NCBI GenBank assembly: GCA_001797815.1
Contig: MGQK01000092.1
Span: 55,946 to 66,883, forward strand
Source: Deltaproteobacteria bacterium RBG_13_61_14
Lineage (GTDB): Bacteria; RBG-13-61-14
Length of the DNA stretch: 10,938 nucleotides
Reading direction: 5' to 3'
Below are positions 361 to 10,085 of the stretch, in pieces. Under the pieces are notes generated by a model. That model was not told where the DNA came from. It saw nothing but the letters and a program-made list of their open reading frames with translations, and searched no databases. Numbering within the stretch: position 1 is the stretch's first letter; each line of letters opens with the position of its first letter. The position numbers were made by a program, and so were the translations under genes.

Positions 361-1347
361 CTATAACTTGTGGCAACTCTTGCAATTATCACCGTTGTCC
401 GGATGCGGCATCAGGAACCCGGTATGGCAGGCCCGGCAGTCCGTGTTCAGAGTGTGCGGCGGCGTATTGGGCCGCGCCGGCGCGTTCAAGTGCCGGACAT
501 TCGCGCTATGGCACACCGTGCAGTTGCTCGCGCTCTCCCCCAGGTGACAATCCAGGCAGTGCCGGTCGCCGGGCGAGCCCCAGCCGCCCCGGTGGCTCTG
601 CGGCGCGGTCTCCTGGTGGCACCGGACGCAGTAATCGCTCCGGTGGCAGGCGGCGCAGCGCTCGCGATCCAGACCGGCCTCGGTCCCGTGGCCGAAAGTC
701 CGCCAGGTATAGGTGTGATCCCTGGGTTTCTCGACCTCATGGCAGCTCGCGCAACTGGTCCGCTGGTGGCAGCGGAAGCAGCGCTCGCCCATCACCGGCT
801 CGCGCGCCGCTTGCCCGTGCAACCGGTCCCAGGCCTGTTTATGGTCCGGCGGCGGGGTCTCGCGGTTGAGGGTCTGGTGACAGACCGCGCACTCGGCGCC
901 CACCCCCATTTCCCGGTGGCAGTCGAGGCAGGTGGCTTCGCTGGGCATGTCCTGCCTCGTTACCTTTTTACTGGAACCCACCTCATCATGGCAACGCTGG
1001 CATTCCACCCCGGCCGCTTGATGCGTGCGGTGCGAGAACTTGCCATCCGCGGGCAGGGCCCTGAGCCGCGGCCACTTGGCCGCCAACTCGGTCGCCAGCC
1101 CGGAATACTTCGCCGCTTCCTCGTGACAGCCCTGGCAAACCTGGGGATCAGGGGCGCCGGCATGGAGCCCGTCCTCCGAACCCGCGTGACAATCACTGCA
1201 TTTAAGCCCCTGCTCCTGCACGTGGAGCTTATGGCTGAACCACACCCGGCCCCCCTGGCAGGAAAAACCGAGCATGACCAGGGCTAGGATTAGCCCGCTT
1301 CCCAACAGCACCAACCTTCGCATGAGATTCATGTCCTTAAAATTCAT
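361..1347 (-). CDS. 13-heme cytochrome c (porin-cytochrome conduit component)
   Basis: A 328-residue protein with thirteen CXXCH motifs, whose first cysteines are residues 50, 71, 116, 140, 153, 190, 199, 231, 240, 264, 276, 304 and 322. Early repeats have the FSHxxH...GxxCxxCH pattern of cytochrome c7/c3-like modules. The signal is hydrophobic (about 10-29) and ends LGFSC, which fits a loose lipobox with Cys30, so the protein may be lipid-anchored rather than soluble. The ATG at 1347 overlaps the end of the barrel gene by 11 bp. A start at ATG 1323 (residue 9) is also plausible: the signal peptide would begin directly with MRR, and AAGGA lies ten bases upstream. Context suggests it plugs the barrel and relays electrons across the outer membrane, the role of OmaB or MtrA, which have 8 and 10 hemes. 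The heme count is directly seen; the conduit role is inferred from gene order. Confidence 0.92.
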   Translation of the reverse strand: MNFKDMNLMRRLVLLGSGLILALVMLGFSCQGGRVWFSHKLHVQEQGLKCSDCHAGSEDGLHAGAPDPQVCQGCHEEAAKYSGLATELAAKWPRLRALPADGKFSHRTHQAAGVECQRCHDEVGSSKKVTRQDMPSEATCLDCHREMGVGAECAVCHQTLNRETPPPDHKQAWDRLHGQAAREPVMGERCFRCHQRTSCASCHEVEKPRDHTYTWRTFGHGTEAGLDRERCAACHRSDYCVRCHQETAPQSHRGGWGSPGDRHCLDCHLGESASNCTVCHSANVRHLNAPARPNTPPHTLNTDCRACHTGFLMPHPDNGDNCKSCHKL

Positions 1348-2707
1348 ATCTCAACCTGGCCCGGAAAGTGTCCACCTCGCGCAAGCTGCTATCCTCGAAA
1401 CTGTAGCTCAACAGGAGCAGCACGTTCTTCCTCACGGGAAGGGTCAAGTCCGTGTAATAGGTCTGCGTCTCCTCCCGCTCCTCGCCGGTGAACTCATCAA
1501 TCTTGTAAAGATCAAAAGCAGTGCCGGCGCGGAACAGACCCCGCTTCCCGAAGCGCTGGTTATACTCGGCCCGGAGGGTGCGGGCCTCGGTAACATTGTT
1601 TTCCTGGGTGGCCAGCCACCAGTCGGCCCCGAGCATCAGCTCGGACCGGGCCAAGGGCACCTTGTTGATGAACAGGCTGAGCAAGTAGCGCTGATAGCCA
1701 TGATTGAAGCGCCCCTCGTCTTCCTCGTTCCCAAGGCCCCGGACCACCGCTCCGGCCTCAACGCCTAGCCGCTCGCCGATCCCTTTATAGAGGGTAACGC
1801 CGGCCTGGTGATAAGGATGGAGGTCGCCAAGCAAAACGGAAAAGGCGTCCTCGGTCAGGGGCTCGGCCTCCCGGGTGAGATAGAGACCCTGGTAAAAGGC
1901 GGAAACATTGAGATTGCGCTCTTCATCGCGATGGGAGCCGCGCAGGACCACGTCGCGCAACTCGCCGTCTTGCAAGCTGATCCGGCCGAGCAGGTGATCA
2001 TGAAGCCGCGGGCGCCAGGCGGCTTGCGCCACGGCCAGGCTTTGCTTCAGAGTCTCCTCCCGGCCGTCCAGCAACTCCACCCGATCGCGCAAATCCAGGT
2101 AACCCGCGCGCAGGGAAAGGGTGCGCAAGGCCCGCCAGTCCGCGTAAACGCCGGCCACGGAATCGCCTCGCCGGTCATTCAGGTCTTCATAGAGATTGGT
2201 GGGCAGGCCGGCCAGGGCGGTAAGAGTGAAGTTCCGGGTCGCCTCCGGCCGCAGCGTAATCAGCCCGCCGTCAAAGGCGATAGGCGCCAGCTCCAGGGAA
2301 TCCTGCCGGCCCAGGCGAAAGAGTTTCAGGGCGCCGGGACCGTTCACCTCGCCGTAGGCCAGGTAGATCCAGCCGAAGGTGGATTGGTCATAGGTGTCCG
2401 CGATTTCGCGGAAGGGATCAAACTCGCGGTCGCTGGTTTGGCCGTCAATATCGCTTTGCAGCGCGCCGGCGAAAACGAAGCCGGCTTCCCGGCCTTCGCC
2501 CAGAGCGGCCCAGGGACCAAACCCTTGCACGGAGAGCCGCTCGATCAAGTCCTGGTCCGTGTTTTCTCCGTCGGTTCGCAGCCGGTAGCCGGCTTCCGCC
2601 GACCCGCCCAGAGAGGCGCCTTTTTCCAGAGCCGAGCCCGGGAAGGGGGTCATCAACACGATGCCCGCTATCACCAGGGCCCCCGCCTTCTTGACCGCGG
2701 AAATCAT
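1337..2707 (-). CDS. Outer-membrane beta-barrel protein of a porin-cytochrome conduit
   Basis: 456 residues. The N-terminus is a Sec signal peptide: Lys6-Lys7, a hydrophobic run and likely cleavage after PGSA (about residue 26). The mature part is rich in alternating polar and hydrophobic strands with many aromatic residues, and it ends in RLRYEF, the C-terminal Phe typical of barrels inserted by the BAM machinery. There are no CXXCH motifs. Length and composition fit the roughly 20-strand porins that sheathe multiheme cytochromes (OmbB, ExtB or MtrB-like role), although sequence identity to those cannot be judged by eye. It is first in a minus-strand operon whose second gene overlaps it by 11 bp. 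The start ATG (2707-2705) has a weak GAGGA about 13 bases upstream; a candidate promoter lies near 2881-2909. The barrel call is strong, and the conduit function rests on the cytochrome neighbours. Confidence 0.85.
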   Translation of the reverse strand: MISAVKKAGALVIAGIVLMTPFPGSALEKGASLGGSAEAGYRLRTDGENTDQDLIERLSVQGFGPWAALGEGREAGFVFAGALQSDIDGQTSDREFDPFREIADTYDQSTFGWIYLAYGEVNGPGALKLFRLGRQDSLELAPIAFDGGLITLRPEATRNFTLTALAGLPTNLYEDLNDRRGDSVAGVYADWRALRTLSLRAGYLDLRDRVELLDGREETLKQSLAVAQAAWRPRLHDHLLGRISLQDGELRDVVLRGSHRDEERNLNVSAFYQGLYLTREAEPLTEDAFSVLLGDLHPYHQAGVTLYKGIGERLGVEAGAVVRGLGNEEDEGRFNHGYQRYLLSLFINKVPLARSELMLGADWWLATQENNVTEARTLRAEYNQRFGKRGLFRAGTAFDLYKIDEFTGEEREETQTYYTDLTLPVRKNVLLLLSYSFEDSSLREVDTFRARLRYEF

Positions 2708-3054: not shown

Positions 3055-3060
3055 AAGGAG
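3055..3060 (+). promoter_or_regulatory. Shine-Dalgarno sequence of the receiver-cytochrome b gene
   Basis: AAGGAG lies six bases before the ATG at 3067 and sets the start of the first gene of the operon. It directly follows the right arm of the inverted repeat, so folding of that repeat could affect ribosome access. Confidence 0.75.
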
Positions 3061-3066
3061 TAATCA

Positions 3067-3969
3067 ATGCCGTTGGGTCCCTTGGTCAAATCGTTGTTCA
3101 CCGAGCCCTCCCCGGAGCCGATCCCTTTACCCCCGATCGCGGTCCTGGTCATTGACGACGATGACAAGGTGCTGACCCGGGTGCAAGAGGTCTTGCGCCG
3201 GGCCGGGTGCCTGGTGGATACGGCCGGCTCCGGGCCCGAGGGCCTGGCCCGGCTTGCGCGCCAGGACTATGACCTGGTCTTCACCGACCTGATGATGCCG
3301 GAGATGAGCGGGATCGAGGTGGTGCGCCGGGCGCTGGCGAGGAAGCCCGAGACCGCGGTGCTGATGATCACCGGCTTCGCCTCGGTGGACAGCGCGGTCG
3401 AGGCCCTGAAGTTGGGCGCCCTGGACTATATTGAGAAGCCCTTCACGCCCTCGGAATTGGAGGCCTTTACCCGGGCCGCCCTGAAAAAGAAGCGGGAGCG
3501 GAAGATCCAGCGGGAGCAAGAGCATGGCTTTGTCCGCTTGACTCTCTCCGAGCGGATGCAGCATATCTTACTCCTGGTCTCCTTTACCGCCCTGGTGGTG
3601 ACCGGGATCCCGCTCCTGTTTCCGGACCTGTTCCAGAACGTCTTTTTCCTGAGCGAAAGTTCCTTGATCCGGAGTATCACCCACCGGGCGGCCGCCTTGA
3701 TCCTGATCGGCGCCGGCTTGATGCACGTGGCCTCTAACCTGATCTCGCCCGAGGGCAACCGGGAATGGGCTATCGGCAACATCCAAACGGCCAAGCGCAT
3801 GGAACAGCACTGGATTCCTCGGGTGGTGCGGCAACTATACCTGGTCTTGATCATGGCCGTGATCGGAGGACTAGTTGCTTTTCTCGCCATTGACCTCTAT
3901 TCTCGAATTAAGGCGCATCCGCGGAAAAAGCCGGATGAGCCGAAAAAACCCGCCGGAGGCAAGGATTGA
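3067..3969 (+). CDS. Response-regulator receiver domain fused to a half cytochrome b and a third membrane helix
   Basis: 300 residues. Residues about 24-140 are a CheY-like receiver of NtrC type: acidic pocket Asp30-Asp32, phospho-acceptor Asp74 in FTDLMMPEMSG, Thr102 in MITGFAS and Lys124 in YIEKPF. All key residues are present, so it should be phosphorylatable. There is no sigma-54 ATPase or DNA-binding domain. After a basic charged linker (140-160) come two membrane helices like the first half of the cytochromes b encoded downstream: helix 1 (about 166-186) starts at Gln-His166 and runs to the TGIPL turn, and helix 2 (about 203-223) carries His206 and His220 in the same H-x13-H spacing as both cytochromes b. 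A third helix (about 256-277) and a Lys-rich tail resemble the C-terminal anchors of the neighbouring cytochromes c. Helices III and IV of a real cytochrome b are missing, so intramolecular heme ligation is uncertain. It is first in the operon; its stop overlaps the next start. Confidence 0.85.
   Translation: MPLGPLVKSLFTEPSPEPIPLPPIAVLVIDDDDKVLTRVQEVLRRAGCLVDTAGSGPEGLARLARQDYDLVFTDLMMPEMSGIEVVRRALARKPETAVLMITGFASVDSAVEALKLGALDYIEKPFTPSELEAFTRAALKKKRERKIQREQEHGFVRLTLSERMQHILLLVSFTALVVTGIPLLFPDLFQNVFFLSESSLIRSITHRAAALILIGAGLMHVASNLISPEGNREWAIGNIQTAKRMEQHWIPRVVRQLYLVLIMAVIGGLVAFLAIDLYSRIKAHPRKKPDEPKKPAGGKD
3955..3959 (+). promoter_or_regulatory. Shine-Dalgarno sequence supporting a TTG start
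   Basis: GGAGG lies six bases before the TTG at 3966-3968. It favours TTG as the real start of the 6-heme cytochrome gene, because no in-frame ATG or GTG occurs before or within the signal peptide. Confidence 0.65.
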
Positions 3970-4763
3970 GCAAGACCTGGACACTGCTGGCTTGGGCACT
4001 AATCCCCGGCTGCGCGCTGTCCTTTTCCGGCTGGTCCCAGCCACTCTCGCCGCTCCACCAGCAGCGCCAGCGCGAGCTCGCCCAGTCCGCGCACAAAAAC
4101 CTTGCCTGCACCGACTGCCACCCCCGCGGCGTGGACCCGGTGCTGCGGCCGAAGATGGAGCCGGTCACCTGCGGCGCCTGCCACCCGGCCGAGGCCGCGG
4201 TGTATCAGGAGAGCATCCACGGCCAGGAGGCGGCTAAAGGCAACCCCGACGTTCCCACCTGCGCCTCCTGCCACGGCTCGCACGCCGTCGCTCCGGTCTC
4301 CTCCCCCGAGTCGCGGGTATCTATGGAAAACCTGCCCCAGACCTGCTCCGCCTGCCACGAGAGCCTGGCCCTGGCCCAAAAATACGGCATCCCCGGCCGG
4401 CGTTATTCCACCTATCTCTTCAGTTTCCACGGCGAGGCCAACCGCTTCGGCCAGGTGACCGTGGCCAACTGCGCGAGCTGCCACGGCACCCATAACATTT
4501 TCCCTTTCAGCGACCCGCGCTCGACCGTCAACCCGAAAAACCTGGTCCGCACCTGCGGGCAATGCCACCCCAACGCCACCAGGAACTTCGCCCGGGGCAA
4601 GGTCCACGTCGAGGCCACCCCGGAAAACTCCAAGGGGGTGTTCGTGGTCCGCACCTTCTATTACTGGTTCATCGGAACCCTGGTCGCGCTTTTCGCCCTG
4701 CACATCGTCCTGGACCTCTACGGCCGGGCCCGAAGGCGCGTCCACCCGGAGGCCAAACGATGA
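3966..4763 (+). CDS. 6-heme membrane-anchored cytochrome c (Cbc-type complex subunit)
   Basis: 265 residues with CXXCH motifs at residues 48, 69, 99, 127, 169 and 197. The start is TTG, overlapping the TGA of the upstream gene as TTGA. It is supported by GGAGG six bases upstream and by the hydrophobic signal segment that follows at once (about 5-23). A single transmembrane helix near the C-terminus (about 230-252) ends in a basic RARRR stop, so the heme domain faces the periplasm on a C-terminal anchor. Blocks such as [22 protein letters not shown] and CGQCHPNATRNFARGK recur nearly unchanged in the 9-heme protein two genes downstream, so the two are paralogues. Its stop overlaps the ATG of a cytochrome b by 4 bp. 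The likely role is to take electrons from that cytochrome b, as in Geobacter Cbc complexes (inferred from gene pairing). Confidence 0.92.
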   Translation: MSKTWTLLAWALIPGCALSFSGWSQPLSPLHQQRQRELAQSAHKNLACTDCHPRGVDPVLRPKMEPVTCGACHPAEAAVYQESIHGQEAAKGNPDVPTCASCHGSHAVAPVSSPESRVSMENLPQTCSACHESLALAQKYGIPGRRYSTYLFSFHGEANRFGQVTVANCASCHGTHNIFPFSDPRSTVNPKNLVRTCGQCHPNATRNFARGKVHVEATPENSKGVFVVRTFYYWFIGTLVALFALHIVLDLYGRARRRVHPEAKR

Positions 4764-5470
4764 AGCCGAAGGCGCTCCCTTCTTCCCGCCGGAAAAACGG
4801 CCTGGTCAAGCGCTGGACCCGCGCCCAGCTCTTCCAGCACTGGCTGGTCCTGCTTAGCCTCATCCTGCTCGGCCTCACCGGGCTTGCTCTCAAGTATCAC
4901 GCCCACGCCTGGGCCGCCTGGCTGCTGCAACGCATGGGCGGGCCGGCCATGAGCGGCACCCTGCACCGGACCGCGGCCGTGGTCTTGATCGGCACCGTGG
5001 TCTTCCACCTCGCCCACGCCGCTCTGACCGAATACGGCCACCAGGAGTTCCGGCGCATCCGGCTCAGGGCCCAGGACTTCCGCGACTTTCTGCACATGCT
5101 CAAGTTCAACCTCGGCTCGGCCCCGGAGCCGCCGAAAACCGCCAAGTACAGCTACCAGGAAAAATTCCATTACTGGGCCGTGGCCCTGATCGTCCTCCTC
5201 ATGATCCCCTCCGGCTTCGTGCTGTGGTTCGAGAACGAGGCCATGCAGTTTTTGCCCAAGTGGATCTACGACCTCACCCTGGTCCTCCACGGCGGCGCCG
5301 GGATCTTTTTCTTCGCGGTGGTGGTCCTCTCCCACCTCTACAGCGTGCACCTCGATCCCCGCGTCTTCCCCATGGACTGGATGTGGCTCACCGGCACCAT
5401 CAGCGAAGACCAGCTCCGGGCCCGGCATCCCCTGGAATTCGAGGAGCTTGAGGAACGCTCCGGCTCATGA
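4760..5470 (+). CDS. Four-helix cytochrome b, quinol-oxidising membrane subunit (first copy)
   Basis: 236 residues beginning at ATG 4760, which overlaps the previous stop (ATGA). The open frame extends further upstream, but only inside the preceding gene. Four membrane helices are visible: about 27-47 (Gln-His27), 69-90 (His69 and His83, H-x13-H), 137-157 (His137) and 175-196 (His177, His192, then His197). The pattern is that of the cytochrome b561/formate dehydrogenase gamma/Ni-Fe hydrogenase b-type family, which binds two b hemes between helices I, II and IV and exchanges electrons with menaquinone. Sandwiched between two cytochromes c, it probably oxidises menaquinol and passes electrons to the 6-heme subunit. 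The direction of electron flow is not shown by the sequence. Confidence 0.9.
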   Translation: MKPKALPSSRRKNGLVKRWTRAQLFQHWLVLLSLILLGLTGLALKYHAHAWAAWLLQRMGGPAMSGTLHRTAAVVLIGTVVFHLAHAALTEYGHQEFRRIRLRAQDFRDFLHMLKFNLGSAPEPPKTAKYSYQEKFHYWAVALIVLLMIPSGFVLWFENEAMQFLPKWIYDLTLVLHGGAGIFFFAVVVLSHLYSVHLDPRVFPMDWMWLTGTISEDQLRARHPLEFEELEERSGS

Positions 5471-6555
5471 ACCCGCGCCCGATCAAACTGGCGCTCGTCG
5501 CGCTCGCGGCCGGCCTGGCCGGAGGCTGGGCCGCGGCCGGGCGAGCCCAGGCGCCGCTCCAGACCTGCACCATTTGCCACGCCAAGCCGGACCTGGAAGT
5601 GGTGGACGCGAACGGCCGGGTCCGCTCGCTCTACGTGGACGAGAAGGTGCTCAAGGCCTCGGTCCATGCCCGGAAGAGTTGCAAGGACTGCCATTTCGAC
5701 GTGAAGGAAATCCCTCACCGCGACCGCAAGCCGGCCAAGGTGCAATGCACCCATTGCCATTACCAGGGCAACCCCGAGGGCGCGCCCCAGTCCGACGCCT
5801 ACCTGGAATACGCCGAGAGCATCCACGGCCAGGAGGCGGCCAGGGGCAACCCCCAGGCCCCGCTCTGCCAGGACTGCCACGGCACCCACGACATCCGCCA
5901 TGCCAGGGACCCGGAAGCGCGCGTCTCCCGGATGAACGTGGCCGAGACCTGCGGCCGCTGCCACCTCAAGATCTACGGCGAATACGCGGGCAGCATCCAC
6001 GGGGTGGCCCTGCTTCAGAAGCGCCTGCCCGACGCGCCCGCCTGCACCGACTGCCACGGCGAGCACGCCATCCGCAAAAAAGAAGACCCCAACTCCAAGG
6101 TCTACGTCAGCAACATCGCCGAGACCTGTTCCCGCTGTCACGGCAACGAGAACATCGTGGGCAAATACGGGATCGAGACCGAGCAGGTCGCCACCTACGC
6201 CGACAGCTTCCACGGCATCGCCGAGAAATTCGGGGCCAAGACCGTGGCCAACTGCGCGAGCTGCCACGGGATCCACGACATCCTGCCGGCCGACGACCCG
6301 CGCAGCTCCGTCGCCCTCCACAACATCCCCAAGACCTGCGGCAAGTGCCACCCCGGCGCTAACAAGAACTTCGCCAAGGGCAAGATCCACGTCAACCCCG
6401 ACAAGGCCGAGGCCGGGATCATCTTCTGGGTCAAGCTGGCGTTCACCGTGCTCACCGCCGGCACCATGGCCGCGCTGATCGGACACATCCTCCTCGACCT
6501 CCGCAAAAAATTGAAAGTGCGGCGGGCCGCAAAGAACGAAGGGCGCCATGACTGA
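5467..6555 (+). CDS. 9-heme membrane-anchored cytochrome c (Cbc-type complex subunit, paralogue of the 6-heme protein)
   Basis: 362 residues. The ATG at 5467 overlaps the preceding stop (ATGA), and GAGGAA at 5450-5455 is a possible ribosome-binding site. A Sec signal peptide ends near GRAQA (about 28). Nine CXXCH motifs start at residues 34, 72, 94, 134, 162, 193, 221, 263 and 291. The C-terminal membrane helix (about 319-344) is followed by a basic tail, giving periplasmic hemes with a C-terminal anchor. The last two thirds align by eye with the 6-heme protein ([38 protein letters not shown]). The extra hemes lie mainly in the N-terminal part. It is followed by its own cytochrome b with an 8-bp overlap, so the operon contains two c/b modules in tandem. 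Probable role: electron acceptor for the second cytochrome b. Confidence 0.92.
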
Positions 6556-7564
6556 ACCCGCGGAGCGTGATTCCCAGCCGGGCAAAGAGCCGAAGCCTTA
6601 CCAGGAAGCCCTGGACCTGATCGCGGAAGAGCTGTATCAGCAGCTCCGGCGCGATCTCGACGACGCTTACGACCCGGACCTGGATGACTACATCCGCGAG
6701 CAGGTGAAGAAACGGGTGGAGCGCGACCTGGGCACGGAGATGGACCTGCGCCTGGCCCGGGCCCGGCGCCGGCTGCGGGCCGAGGTGGAGCGGGGGCTGA
6801 ATAAAGAGCGCAAGCGCCGGAAAATGGCGGCGGCGCCGGAGCGCGGGCGTTCCTTGGTCCGGCTCAACCGCCATTTCCGGGCCCAGCACCTGGCGCTCTT
6901 CACCAGCGTGATCATCCTGATCATCACCGGGCTGCCCATGAAGTTCTCCCGCCTCGGGATCTCCGGGTTCGTGGTCAACCTTCTGGGCGGGATCGAGAAC
7001 GACCGCATCCTCCACCGCACCGGCGCCACCATCTTGATCGGCGTGGCCCTCTATCACCTCGGCTACACCCTGTTCCATCCCCAGGGCCGCAGCGACTTCT
7101 TCCTCTTGCTCCCCCGCCTCAAAGACGCCTGGGACGCGCTCCTTAACGTCCTTTACTTCCTCGGCATCACCCGGGAGCGGCCCCGCTTTGACCGCTTCAG
7201 TTACATGGAAAAGTTCGATTACTGGGCGGTCTATTGGGGCTGCGTGATCATGATCGGCTCGGGCCTGATCCTGTGGTTCCCCGACACCGCCCTGCAATGG
7301 ATTCCCAAGTTCGCGGTGGACACGGTCAAAGAGGCCCACAGCGACGAGGCGCTGCTCGCCACCCTCGCCCTGGTCATCTGGCATTTCTACAACGTCCACT
7401 TCAACCCCGACCGCTTCCCCGGGACCCTGCTCTGGTGGCACGGCCGGATCAGCGAAAAAGAAATCAAGGAAGAGCACCCGCTGGAATACGAGCGGATCAT
7501 CCCAGAACCATCCGAACTCTTGCCCGGGTCGGCTGACCCGAGCCCCCAGGCCGACGCCGAATGA
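6548..7564 (+). CDS. Cytochrome b with charged cytoplasmic N-terminal extension (second copy)
   Basis: 338 residues, about 100 longer than the first cytochrome b. Residues 1-105 are highly charged, rich in Arg, Glu and Asp, and probably helical or coiled coil; no known domain is recognised. The membrane core follows: helix I from His114 (AQH), helix II with His156 and His170 (H-x13-H), helix III about 224-244, and helix IV with His264 and His279 and then His284. The KFHYW motif before helix III in the first copy reads KFDYW here (Asp224), so the helix III His is lost. The usual heme ligands on helices I, II and IV remain. The ATG at 6548 overlaps the 9-heme gene by 8 bp, and the TGA overlaps the next ATG. 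It probably oxidises menaquinol together with the 9-heme subunit. The extension could be a docking platform for cytosolic partners, perhaps the receiver domain encoded first in the operon (speculative). Confidence 0.9.
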
Positions 7565-9609
7565 GAGACCTGCTTCAAGATATCCTGATCCTGGTCCGGG
7601 TCCACTCGCGGGTCCTGCTCAGCCTGGTCATCATCGTCTTCTCGGCCTGGGTGGTCTTCACCGTCGGCTTCTGGGTAGTGAGCGGCAACCCCAAGTCTTG
7701 CCTGATGTGCCACTACGAGCGGCCCTTCTACGAAGGATGGGCCGCCTCCACCCACAAGGAGGTCACCTGCGTCGCCTGCCACCCGGTGGGTGTGACCTTT
7801 GCCACAGTCAACACCGTCAAATACCTGACCGGTTTGTATTCGCCGGTGCCGCGCGCCCGGGTGGAAAACCAGAATTGCCTCCAGGCCGGCTGCCACCAAC
7901 AGCGGCTGAAGCAGGGCAAAGTCCAGGTGGGGGCCATCACCTTTGACCATAACCTGCACCTGGAGCCGACCTTGCGCGGCGGCAACCACCTCTGGTGCTC
8001 GTCCTGCCACGGCCAGATGGTCCAGGGCCGGCACATGGTGGCGGACCTGGGCGTGTGTTTCCTCTGCCACTTCAAGGGCGCGCCGGCCGGCCAGTCGGTT
8101 ACCGGCTGCCCCTCCTGCCACGGCACCCCGACCAAGGTGGTGGAGCACGACGGCTTCGCCTTCAGCCACGAGTCCTACCTGCGGATCGGGGTCGAGTGCC
8201 GGCAGTGCCACCTCCAGGTCAAGGAAGGCGACGGCGAGGTGCCCAGGGAGCGGTGTCACCGCTGCCACGTGGAGCGGGTGGCCTTTTACAACCAGCCGGT
8301 GGCGGTGCACAAGAAGCACGTCAACCAAAACGGGATTGACTGCCTGGAATGCCACGAGCCCATCCGCCACGGCGAGGTCCAGATGATCCAGGCCCTGGAA
8401 ATCCGTTGCGAAAACTGCCATCCGCGGCTACACTCCAACCAGAAAGAGTTATACCTGGGCGCCAGCGCCCGGGGAGTGGCCGACCAGCCCAGCCGGATGT
8501 TCGCGGCCCAGGTGACCTGCGACGGCTGCCATACCCATCCGGTCACCGCCCGGAGCCAGGGAGCCGCGGCGCCGGGCGAGCAGAGCCTGGAAGCCGAGCG
8601 CCGGTCCTGCCTGGACTGCCACGGCCCGGGCTACGACCAGATGCTCGACACCTGGATCCGGGAAGGCGACCGGATGCTGGCCGCGGTCCTCCCCGAGATC
8701 AATACCGCCGAGAGCCTCTTGAAGTCCGACCGCGTCTTGCCCGAGGCCCGGCCCCTCTTGGCGGACGCGGTCTTCAACTACGACCTGGTCCAATCCGGCC
8801 GGCCGGCGCACAACGTGGAATACGCGGTGCGCATCCTCCAGACCGCCTGGGACCAGATGGACGTGGCCCGGGCCGCGACCGAGCCGGGCTATAAGCCCAA
8901 GCTGCGGCCGGCGATCCTGGGCACGCCCGACGGCTACTGCACGGCCATGTGCCACTCGGCGCTGGGCCTGCCGGAGAAGACCGTGTTCATCGAGATGAAG
9001 CTCGAGTTCCCCCACCGCCGGCACGTGGAGGAGATCAAGGTCCCCTGCACCACTTGCCATTCCCCGGACCAGCACAAGATGCGGATCATAGACAAGGCCG
9101 GCTGCATGCAGTGCCACCACGGGAAAGAAGACATGAAGTGCGAGACCTGCCACTCCGGCATCGCCGCCCTGCGCCAGGCCGCGGCCAAGGGAGCGGGCGT
9201 GAAGCCCCGGCCCGAACCCATGGCCGATGCCCTCTCCTGCGCCGACTGCCACAACCTTTTAGACCCGGCCCAGACCGTGCGGGAGATCAAGCCCCGCTGC
9301 ATCGCCTGCCACGACCAGGGTTACGGCGACCTCCTTATCCAGTGGGACGCGGACTGGCGCAACTCGCGGGTCAAGGTGGAAGCCCTGATCGAAGCGGCCA
9401 AGCTCCGGATTGACCAAGACCGTCGGGAAGGCAAAGACACGGCGGCAGCGGAAAAAGGATTAGCCGAGGCCGAGGGCAATTTCCAGATTGCCGATGCCGG
9501 CCGCGGCGTTCACAACTTTGATTATGCGATGGACCTGCTCCAGGCGGCGGAAGATCGCTTGAATCGAATCGTGGGCACCCCGTCCGCCGCGGACGAAAAG
9601 GCCCCCTAA
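7561..9609 (+). CDS. NapC/NirT-anchored 18-heme cytochrome c with internal duplication
   Basis: 682 residues. An uncleaved N-terminal helix (about 17-40) is followed by CLMCH, W...STH and CVACH (47-74), the NapC/NirT/NrfH quinol-dehydrogenase signature. Sixteen CXXCH motifs start at residues 47, 70, 146, 166, 183, 213, 232, 261, 283, 320, 350, 496, 515, 527, 560 and 580. There is also a CX4CH at 106-112 and a CX3CH at 460-465, giving up to 18 hemes. Segments 350-433 and 580-668 are two copies of one module: a heme motif, GYxxxLxxW, about 40 helical residues, then a GR..HN..YA..LLQ-like helix. That last element resembles the C-terminal helices of NrfA-type cytochromes. It is last in the overlapping gene chain (ATGA overlap upstream). 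The likely role is to oxidise quinol or collect electrons from both c/b modules and pass them across the periplasm. A catalytic role is possible, but no NrfA CXXCK heme is seen. Confidence 0.9.
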
Positions 9610-9651: not shown

Positions 9652-9954
9652 ATGACTCAACATACGGAAATGACAAGGACAAATATCGCGTTTGCGTTCG
9701 GGCCGGGCTTGGGGCTCGCGCTGCTCGGCCTCGGGCTGGCGGCCCCGGGCTGGGCGGATAACGGGAAACCCACGGCCTGCGTGACCTGCCATGCCGAGGC
9801 GGCCACCCGCCGGGACCCGAAGCTTTTCGAGTATTACCGGCAGTGGGAAGGCTCGGCCCACCATCAGGCCGGGGTGGACTGTTACGGCTGCCACGGGGGC
9901 GAGGCGCAGGCCCCGGACCCGGCCTGGGTCTGGAAGAGACCGAAAAAAACCTGA
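9652..9954 (+). pseudogene. Truncated diheme cytochrome c (5' remnant)
   Basis: 100 residues. AAGGA (9643-9647) lies four bases before ATG 9652; ATG 9670 is an alternative. A hydrophobic signal peptide ends near GWA-DN, followed by CVTCH (residues 43-47) and CYGCH (82-86). The spacing and the text WEGSAHHQAGVDCYGCHGG resemble the start of octaheme HAO-family or similar multiheme cytochromes, which normally continue for hundreds of residues (family assignment tentative). After about PDPA (near base 9923) the frame reads WVWKRPKKT and stops. Those bases, in another frame, encode a regulator helix-turn-helix. The true cytochrome reading therefore ends at a junction near 9915-9930 and the 3' end is lost. 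A short functional diheme protein cannot be excluded, since signal and both heme motifs are intact. It lies 42 bp after the 18-heme gene. Confidence 0.6.
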
Positions 9955-10085
9955 TTCTTCAGGCCCTGGAAGCATCCCACGGCAACCAGATCCAGGCCGC
10001 CCGCATCCTCAAAATCAGCCGCGACACGCTCCGCTACCGCATGAAAAAATTCAACATCCCCTCCGCCCGCGAACCGCGAACCTGA
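9924..10085 (+). pseudogene. C-terminal Fis-type helix-turn-helix remnant of an NtrC-family regulator
   Basis: About 53 residues ending at TGA 10083-10085. The text includes LEETEKNLILQALEA, then NQIQAARILKISRDTLRYR and MKKFNI, the classic C-terminal DNA-binding domain (HTH_8/Fis type) of sigma-54-dependent response regulators. The receiver and AAA+ ATPase domains that should precede it are absent. Upstream the frame is shared, out of phase, with the truncated diheme cytochrome. The only in-frame start I see is a GTG at 9843 inside that cytochrome, which would add a Gly/Pro/Arg-rich, unnatural-looking N-terminus. The best reading is a 3' gene fragment joined to a 5' cytochrome fragment by deletion or recombination. 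A stand-alone small HTH protein is less likely but possible. Confidence 0.65.

Follow-up and report, generated by a model that had tools for sequence, protein, structure and literature searches.

A response-regulator receiver fused to half a cytochrome b heads a multiheme cytochrome operon in a deltaproteobacterial genome

Two-component systems are known mainly for the control of transcription, second messengers and motility. Receivers of the NtrC1/DctD type dimerise through an extended last helix, and in cytochrome b6 an H-x13-H pair ligates two hemes. A survey of archaeal regulators describes receivers attached to metabolic enzymes, as well as a membrane-anchored output, MetOD3 (PMC5847659). 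As far as the accessible parts of the published accounts go, the nearest published systems to the locus described here are the Cbc complexes of Geobacter. Compared by description, the Cbc-type menaquinol:ferricytochrome c oxidoreductases and the CbcL-like c-b fusions (PMC11434368, PMC7894505) combine an inner-membrane cytochrome b and a multiheme cytochrome c with an outer-membrane cytochrome/porin-like pair, and so does our locus.

The locus belongs to Deltaproteobacteria bacterium RBG_13_61_14 (GCA_001797815.1; contig MGQK01000092.1, positions 55,946 to 66,883 of the forward strand). This whole stretch of 10,938 nt is referred to as the window. The genome is a metagenome-assembled draft of 4.7 Mb in 132 contigs, 95% complete, and its phylum was sampled by only three genomes in the searched set. 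The features are as follows, in window positions:

361-1347, minus strand: divergent 13-heme cytochrome c
1337-2707, minus strand: divergent 456-aa protein ending in Phe (...RYEF), likely an outer-membrane beta-barrel, judged from its sequence only (no Pfam match)
3055-3060, plus strand: Shine-Dalgarno site AAGGAG ahead of the fusion gene
3067-3969, plus strand: fusion gene of 300 aa, comprising a receiver, cytochrome b helices I-II and a cytochrome c-type anchor helix
3142-3465, plus strand: receiver domain, aa 26-133 (PF00072, E 9.6e-29; nearest solved receivers NtrC1 and DctD), with the phospho-acceptor D74 at 3286-3288
3448-3525, plus strand: extended helix after the receiver, aa 128-153, of the linker type that dimerises NtrC-class receivers (AlphaFold2 pLDDT 85.6; the DctD match reaches aa 164)
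3544-3618, plus strand: cytochrome b helix I, aa 160-184, with H166 (alignment, AlphaFold2, profile match)
3661-3744, plus strand: cytochrome b helix II, aa 199-226, with H206-x13-H220 (alignment, AlphaFold2, profile match)
3814-3915, plus strand: third helix, aa 250-283, homologous to the C-terminal anchor helix of cytochromes c (HMM 41 bits, E 5e-11)
3966-4763, plus strand: 6-heme cytochrome c with C-terminal anchor helix; TTG start, 4-nt overlap with the fusion stop
4760-5470, plus strand: four-helix cytochrome b (b1), ATGA overlap (PF01292, E 9e-15)
5467-6555, plus strand: 9-heme cytochrome c with anchor helix
6548-7564, plus strand: four-helix cytochrome b (b2) with N-terminal cytoplasmic extension (PF01292, E 6e-13)
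7561-9609, plus strand: 16-heme cytochrome c

At the level of sequence, the fusion of a receiver with half a cytochrome is a real and unusual gene. It forms one uninterrupted frame with an ATG start behind the AAGGAG, and sequence comparison gives the order of its parts as receiver, first cytochrome b half and cytochrome c tail. A whole-genome search found one such protein encoded in the source genome. AlphaFold2 models the whole protein confidently (pLDDT 86; 85.6). Scanning of the upstream DNA for a sigma-54 promoter remained at chance level, and a sigma-70-like site was represented by one weak candidate, on the opposite strand only.

With regard to the receiver, the PF00072 match exceeds the gathering score and the active site is complete (D30, D31, D32, D74, T102 and K124), in agreement with a preliminary description of this DNA, which had listed all phosphorylation residues as present. 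The modelled fold alternates beta strands and alpha helices, with pLDDT above 90 for most of the domain. The Pfam search found neither an HTH nor a sigma-54 ATPase domain, membrane helices being in their place, which bears out the earlier statement that the protein has no DNA-binding or enzymatic domain. Identity to the NtrC-type regulators of the source genome reaches 43%. In a weakly supported tree, the nearest sequences are NtrC-type and mixed receivers, and this weak grouping was obtained instead of an origin from the receivers associated with GcvH, NuoE and FNT proteins, which was unsupported. Close kinship to the stand-alone receivers that head other cytochrome operons was likewise rejected, the best score being 11 bits.

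The membrane part is modelled confidently (pLDDT 82). Residues 136-234 match b2 with an E-value of 1e-9, the best in-genome match in the whole-genome search. A profile of the alignment with relatives matches E. coli FdnI (E 8.6e-8) and helices A-B of cytochrome b6 (E 1.1e-4). These matches confirm the homology to helices I and II that had previously been drawn by eye, and they speak against the concern, raised with it, that the membrane helices might prove unlike cytochrome b. As the fusion protein alone falls below the Pfam gathering score for cytochrome b families (16.9 versus 26.7 bits for DUF4405), its family assignment rests on its relatives. When the membrane part is aligned with 41 cytochromes b from other genomes, the positions of H166, G180, H206 and R207 are invariant and those of R157, Q165 and H220 nearly so; the fusion protein keeps R157, H166, G180, H206, R207 and H220 of this set. 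The three histidines, already pointed out in the preliminary description, are ligand candidates. In clustering (support 0.87), the half-cytochrome falls among separate cytochromes b whose genes come after that of an anchored 11-heme cytochrome c.

Helices III-IV, which carry the partner ligands, are absent, as is any fourth helix in the fusion protein, leaving the histidines with no partners within the chain. We considered a receiver joined by frameshift to a whole cytochrome b and rejected it, as helices III-IV are found neither in frame nor in the downstream DNA, where the next gene lies. Comparing folds says little about so small a bundle of helices: Foldseek returned no significant match in the PDB for the three-helix model, and VIA-align ranked E. 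coli hydrogenase-1 cytochrome b second for the modelled hairpin (Z 8.5, rmsd 3.2, 64 residues), a Z that helical hairpins reach by chance. In FdnI, helices III-IV are matched by the hairpin profile as well, the paired histidines being in register; in whole relatives (L254, E 5.6e-6) it likewise matches helices III-IV, the helix II histidines lying over those of helix IV. Since one profile matches both helices I-II and helices III-IV, a whole cytochrome b is a duplicated hairpin. This internal duplication, with the H-x13-H histidines aligned, is seen within the cytochrome b family in b1 and b2 of the window (4760-5470 and 6548-7564) and in their relatives.

The third helix had been described simply as an anchor. 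It is no generic anchor, however: an HMM of the anchor helices of operon-type cytochromes c recognises it with the score given above, the best of 2000 shuffled sequences reaching 9.7 bits, and it is thus homologous to the anchor of the neighbouring cytochromes c. The helix lacks their conserved anchor histidine and is long in the AlphaFold2 model, ending at aa 283. Its identification as cytochrome b helix III was rejected, as an HMM of 60 helix III sequences gives no match. There are no CxxCH heme motifs in the fusion protein. Its anchor is most similar to those of 11-heme cytochromes c paired with separate cytochromes b (L185, E 8e-6). The half-cytochrome and the anchor therefore derive from one kind of gene pair, with the order swapped. 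In all cytochrome c-b fusions seen, the anchor helix precedes the cytochrome b, and the order in the fusion gene is therefore permuted. Some c-b fusion ORFs (L240, L242, L096 and L097) are very large, at ~930-1390 aa from stop to stop, with 13-19 heme motifs and a b2-like cytochrome b. In cytochromes c, this helix crosses the membrane from the outside inwards. In the fusion protein, an inside receiver and a two-helix hairpin precede it, so that it would run the opposite way and leave the C-terminus outside. The C-terminal tail carries six K/R residues, and its placement outside would be contrary to the positive-inside rule.

The fusion gene is the first of six operon genes with good Shine-Dalgarno sites and successive overlaps of 4, 4, 4, 8 and 4 nt, taking the b1 start as the ATG at 4760; it had already been recognised as the head of a translationally coupled respiratory operon. 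The core of this operon, consisting of an anchored cytochrome c, b1, an anchored 9-heme cytochrome c, b2 and a 16-heme cytochrome c, recurs in other phyla without the fusion; there, an 11-heme c-b fusion gene usually precedes or follows it. In the window, the receiver fusion occupies the place of this 11-heme c-b gene. The barrel/13-heme pair on the other strand is a probable porin-cytochrome conduit and, together with the operon, makes the locus resemble a route for electrons from quinol to the cell exterior. At the window edge, this pair is followed by another heme lipoprotein ORF. The neighbouring stretches that were examined showed no kinase gene. Beyond the operon, the stretch at 9652-10085 holds two overlapping features in different frames: the ORF of a 2-heme cytochrome c (9652-9954) and a Fis-type HTH_8 domain (~9930-10085; Pfam E 2e-17) resembling an NtrC-type regulator tail. 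No near copy was found elsewhere in the source genome. This arrangement is possibly a deletion scar or a small coupled DNA-binding protein, and such an out-of-frame joint at the far end of the operon indicates that deletion events can happen in this locus.

The preliminary description had suggested looking for the same architecture beside other cytochrome b/c operons, and the sampled Desulfobacterota, Acidobacteriota, Zixibacteria and Nitrospirota yielded no other fusion of a receiver with a cytochrome b. Full-length searches (E <= 1e-31) covered 347 genomes from the phylum of an Acidobacteria MAG, 395 from that of a Deltaproteobacteria MAG, 131 from that of a Zixibacteria MAG and 99 in a last draw that repeats part of the draw of 395; they gave receiver-only matches or none. 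Searches with the membrane part in 297, 297, 245 and 132 genomes yielded, at the loci fetched, whole cytochromes b or c-b fusions and nothing else. The fetched loci were the best of each search, and of all their ORFs only that of the window protein contains both parts; a rare second fusion may exist beyond them. Plasmid records of the fusion were not found, nor was an intact copy of either parent gene elsewhere in the source genome. A paper on a receiver-cytochrome b fusion was not found in the openly accessible literature, to which the main output-domain surveys do not belong.

These searches did reveal other links between receivers and energy metabolism. In eight genomes (Desulfobacterota loci L094:6243-6671, L146:5781-6203 and L253-L258), a conserved stand-alone receiver of ~142 aa (motifs AYQDD, LLDDE, VISS and MKPV) opens an operon in which a 9- or 11-heme cytochrome c and a cytochrome b follow. 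An NtrC-type regulator gene lies further upstream at these loci, and at L237 the cytochrome c/b pair is directly preceded by an NtrC-type regulator and an ORF about as long as a kinase gene. It had been argued beforehand that separate receiver and membrane genes in homologues would speak for a frameshift or an assembly fusion. Separate receivers do head other cytochrome c/b operons, which fits this loosely; nevertheless, as these receivers are not close relatives and the cytochromes b are whole, they give no sign of such an artefact here. Related receivers are also fused to formate/nitrite transporters (6 ORFs), NuoE-like 2Fe-2S proteins (21) and GcvH-like proteins (39), these class tallies being derived from crude similarity searches. 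The transporters are complete members of the FocA/NirC family, and their genes often lie beside other receiver genes (L012:10761-12098, L018:4834-6132, L036, L043, L059 and L061). Fusions to NuoE/HoxE-like 2Fe-2S, GcvH-like lipoyl-carrier and Nfn-like ferredoxin/pyridine-nucleotide oxidoreductase proteins were seen at L053:6187-7071, L074:8911-9801, L130:964-1824 and L018:1572-3977.

We tentatively propose that the fusion protein is a response regulator bound to the membrane, which acts on the neighbouring quinol:cytochrome c complex as a phosphorylatable accessory subunit. Starting from the receiver, the half-cytochrome, the anchor helix and the operon with its matching complex, all established by sequence comparison, we infer phosphorylation of D74, binding of heme and gating of quinol oxidation. 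A cytoplasmic NtrC/FixJ-type receiver is joined through its last helix to the cytochrome b half, followed by the anchor helix. An unlinked kinase would phosphorylate D74 and thereby alter the dimerisation of the receiver. This would shift the packing of the half-cytochrome, whether its partner is a second copy or one of the whole cytochromes b, and the altered packing would raise or lower quinol oxidation by the Cbc-like complex. As whole cytochromes b are duplicated hairpins, two half-cytochromes could in principle pair into a four-helix di-heme bundle, or a half could pair with a whole cytochrome b. In a more specific version, the receiver dimer would join two halves into a split cytochrome assembled upon phosphorylation, with H206/H206' and H220/H220' binding two hemes, and would switch the quinol:cytochrome c path on or off without a change in transcription; we consider this quite improbable. 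An accessory subunit is consistent with the intact receiver, the kept ligand candidates, the clustering of the half-cytochrome, the position at the head of the operon, the recurrence of the operon core in other phyla, the recurrent link of receivers to cytochrome c/b operons, the match of the hairpin profile to helices III-IV and the dimerising nature of the nearest solved receivers. Against it stand the third-helix topology, the GC3 drop in the tail, the histidines without partners and the lack of a kinase gene in the neighbouring stretches examined. The fusion is, moreover, known from one genome and has no orthologue, so there is no evidence of selection on it.

The missing helices III-IV and the third helix without its conserved histidine would also suit a protein in which the membrane helices bind no heme or quinone, and serve either to keep the receiver close to the complex or as a sink for phosphate. 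The stand-alone receivers heading related operons are in line with such a plain membrane-anchored receiver. Nevertheless, all three histidines and the conserved residues around them are kept, which would be needless for a mere anchor, and we therefore regard this explanation as rather unlikely. We attach a similarly low likelihood to the gene being a recent deletion product with no selected function, in which a receiver, the start of a cytochrome b and the tail of a cytochrome c were joined by deletions in a cluster of regulator and cytochrome genes, the frame staying open by chance or for translational coupling. It is nonetheless a serious rival, because the fusion is confined to a lone genome, its partner helices are missing and its third helix poses a topology problem. 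It would also account for the order permuted relative to c-b fusions and for the second scar, the out-of-frame joint between a Fis-type tail and a cytochrome c at the opposite end of the operon. NtrC-type regulators adjoin relatives of both parent genes, and the last 65 codons (3772-3966) have a GC3 of 0.63, compared with 0.83-0.91 in the rest of the gene and ~0.87-0.91 in the neighbouring genes. In contrast, one would less readily expect of such a remnant that 300 codons stay open, that no catalytic or ligand residue is lost, that the Shine-Dalgarno site is strong and that the junctions fall in natural places, where the receiver helix ends and ahead of helix I.

The possibility that the gene is a chimera of metagenome assembly deserves mention, as the draft consists of 132 contigs and the gene lies ~8 kb from a contig end. 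However, such a chimera would need two in-frame junctions, there is no break at the operon gene boundary, where the 4-nt overlap with the next gene is preserved, and the composition is continuous over the receiver/helix I junction (GC3 0.91 to 0.83). With no intact copy of a parent gene found elsewhere in the genome, we consider an assembly artefact highly improbable.

Should the fusion protein prove to be an accessory subunit, a respiratory complex carrying electrons from quinol to the cell outside would be under direct phosphorylation control, through a receiver built into a piece of cytochrome. The half-cytochrome b would then also offer a natural test of how the duplication of a two-helix hairpin gave rise to the four-helix di-heme cytochromes. 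The repeated occurrence of receivers next to, or as part of, proteins of energy metabolism in several deep lineages of bacteria points to a broader, little-described form of regulation.

In comparison with known systems, the window operon differs from those of the Cbc complexes in that it includes a receiver gene, a receiver subunit not figuring in the accessible parts of their published descriptions; its heme numbers also differ from the subunit list of CbcMNOPQR, as far as that source is available (PMC10989804). NtrC-class response regulators contain the closest solved receivers and share the extended last helix, whereas the fusion protein has neither their sigma-54 ATPase nor their HTH. The four-helix cytochromes b of the FdnI/HyaC type (PF01292) share helices I-II with the conserved histidines, but they also possess helices III-IV and a second set of ligands, both of which the fusion lacks. 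The stand-alone receivers agree with the window receiver in their first-gene position and in the cytochrome families of their operons; in contrast, they are separate soluble proteins of distant sequence, accompanied by a complete cytochrome b, while the window receiver is fused to half of one. Closest in design are the fusions of receivers to metabolic and membrane proteins, which have an N-terminal intact receiver of the same broad group and an output in energy metabolism or the membrane rather than in DNA binding. A redox-membrane output of a receiver had been described as unfamiliar; the FNT, NuoE-like and GcvH-like fusions and the archaeal examples (PMC5847659) show that the general idea is known, whereas a half-cytochrome b output was found nowhere else in the genomes searched and is new. 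The outputs of these other fusions are whole proteins or domains occurring at several loci, while that of the window protein is half a cytochrome b with an anchor, occurring once.
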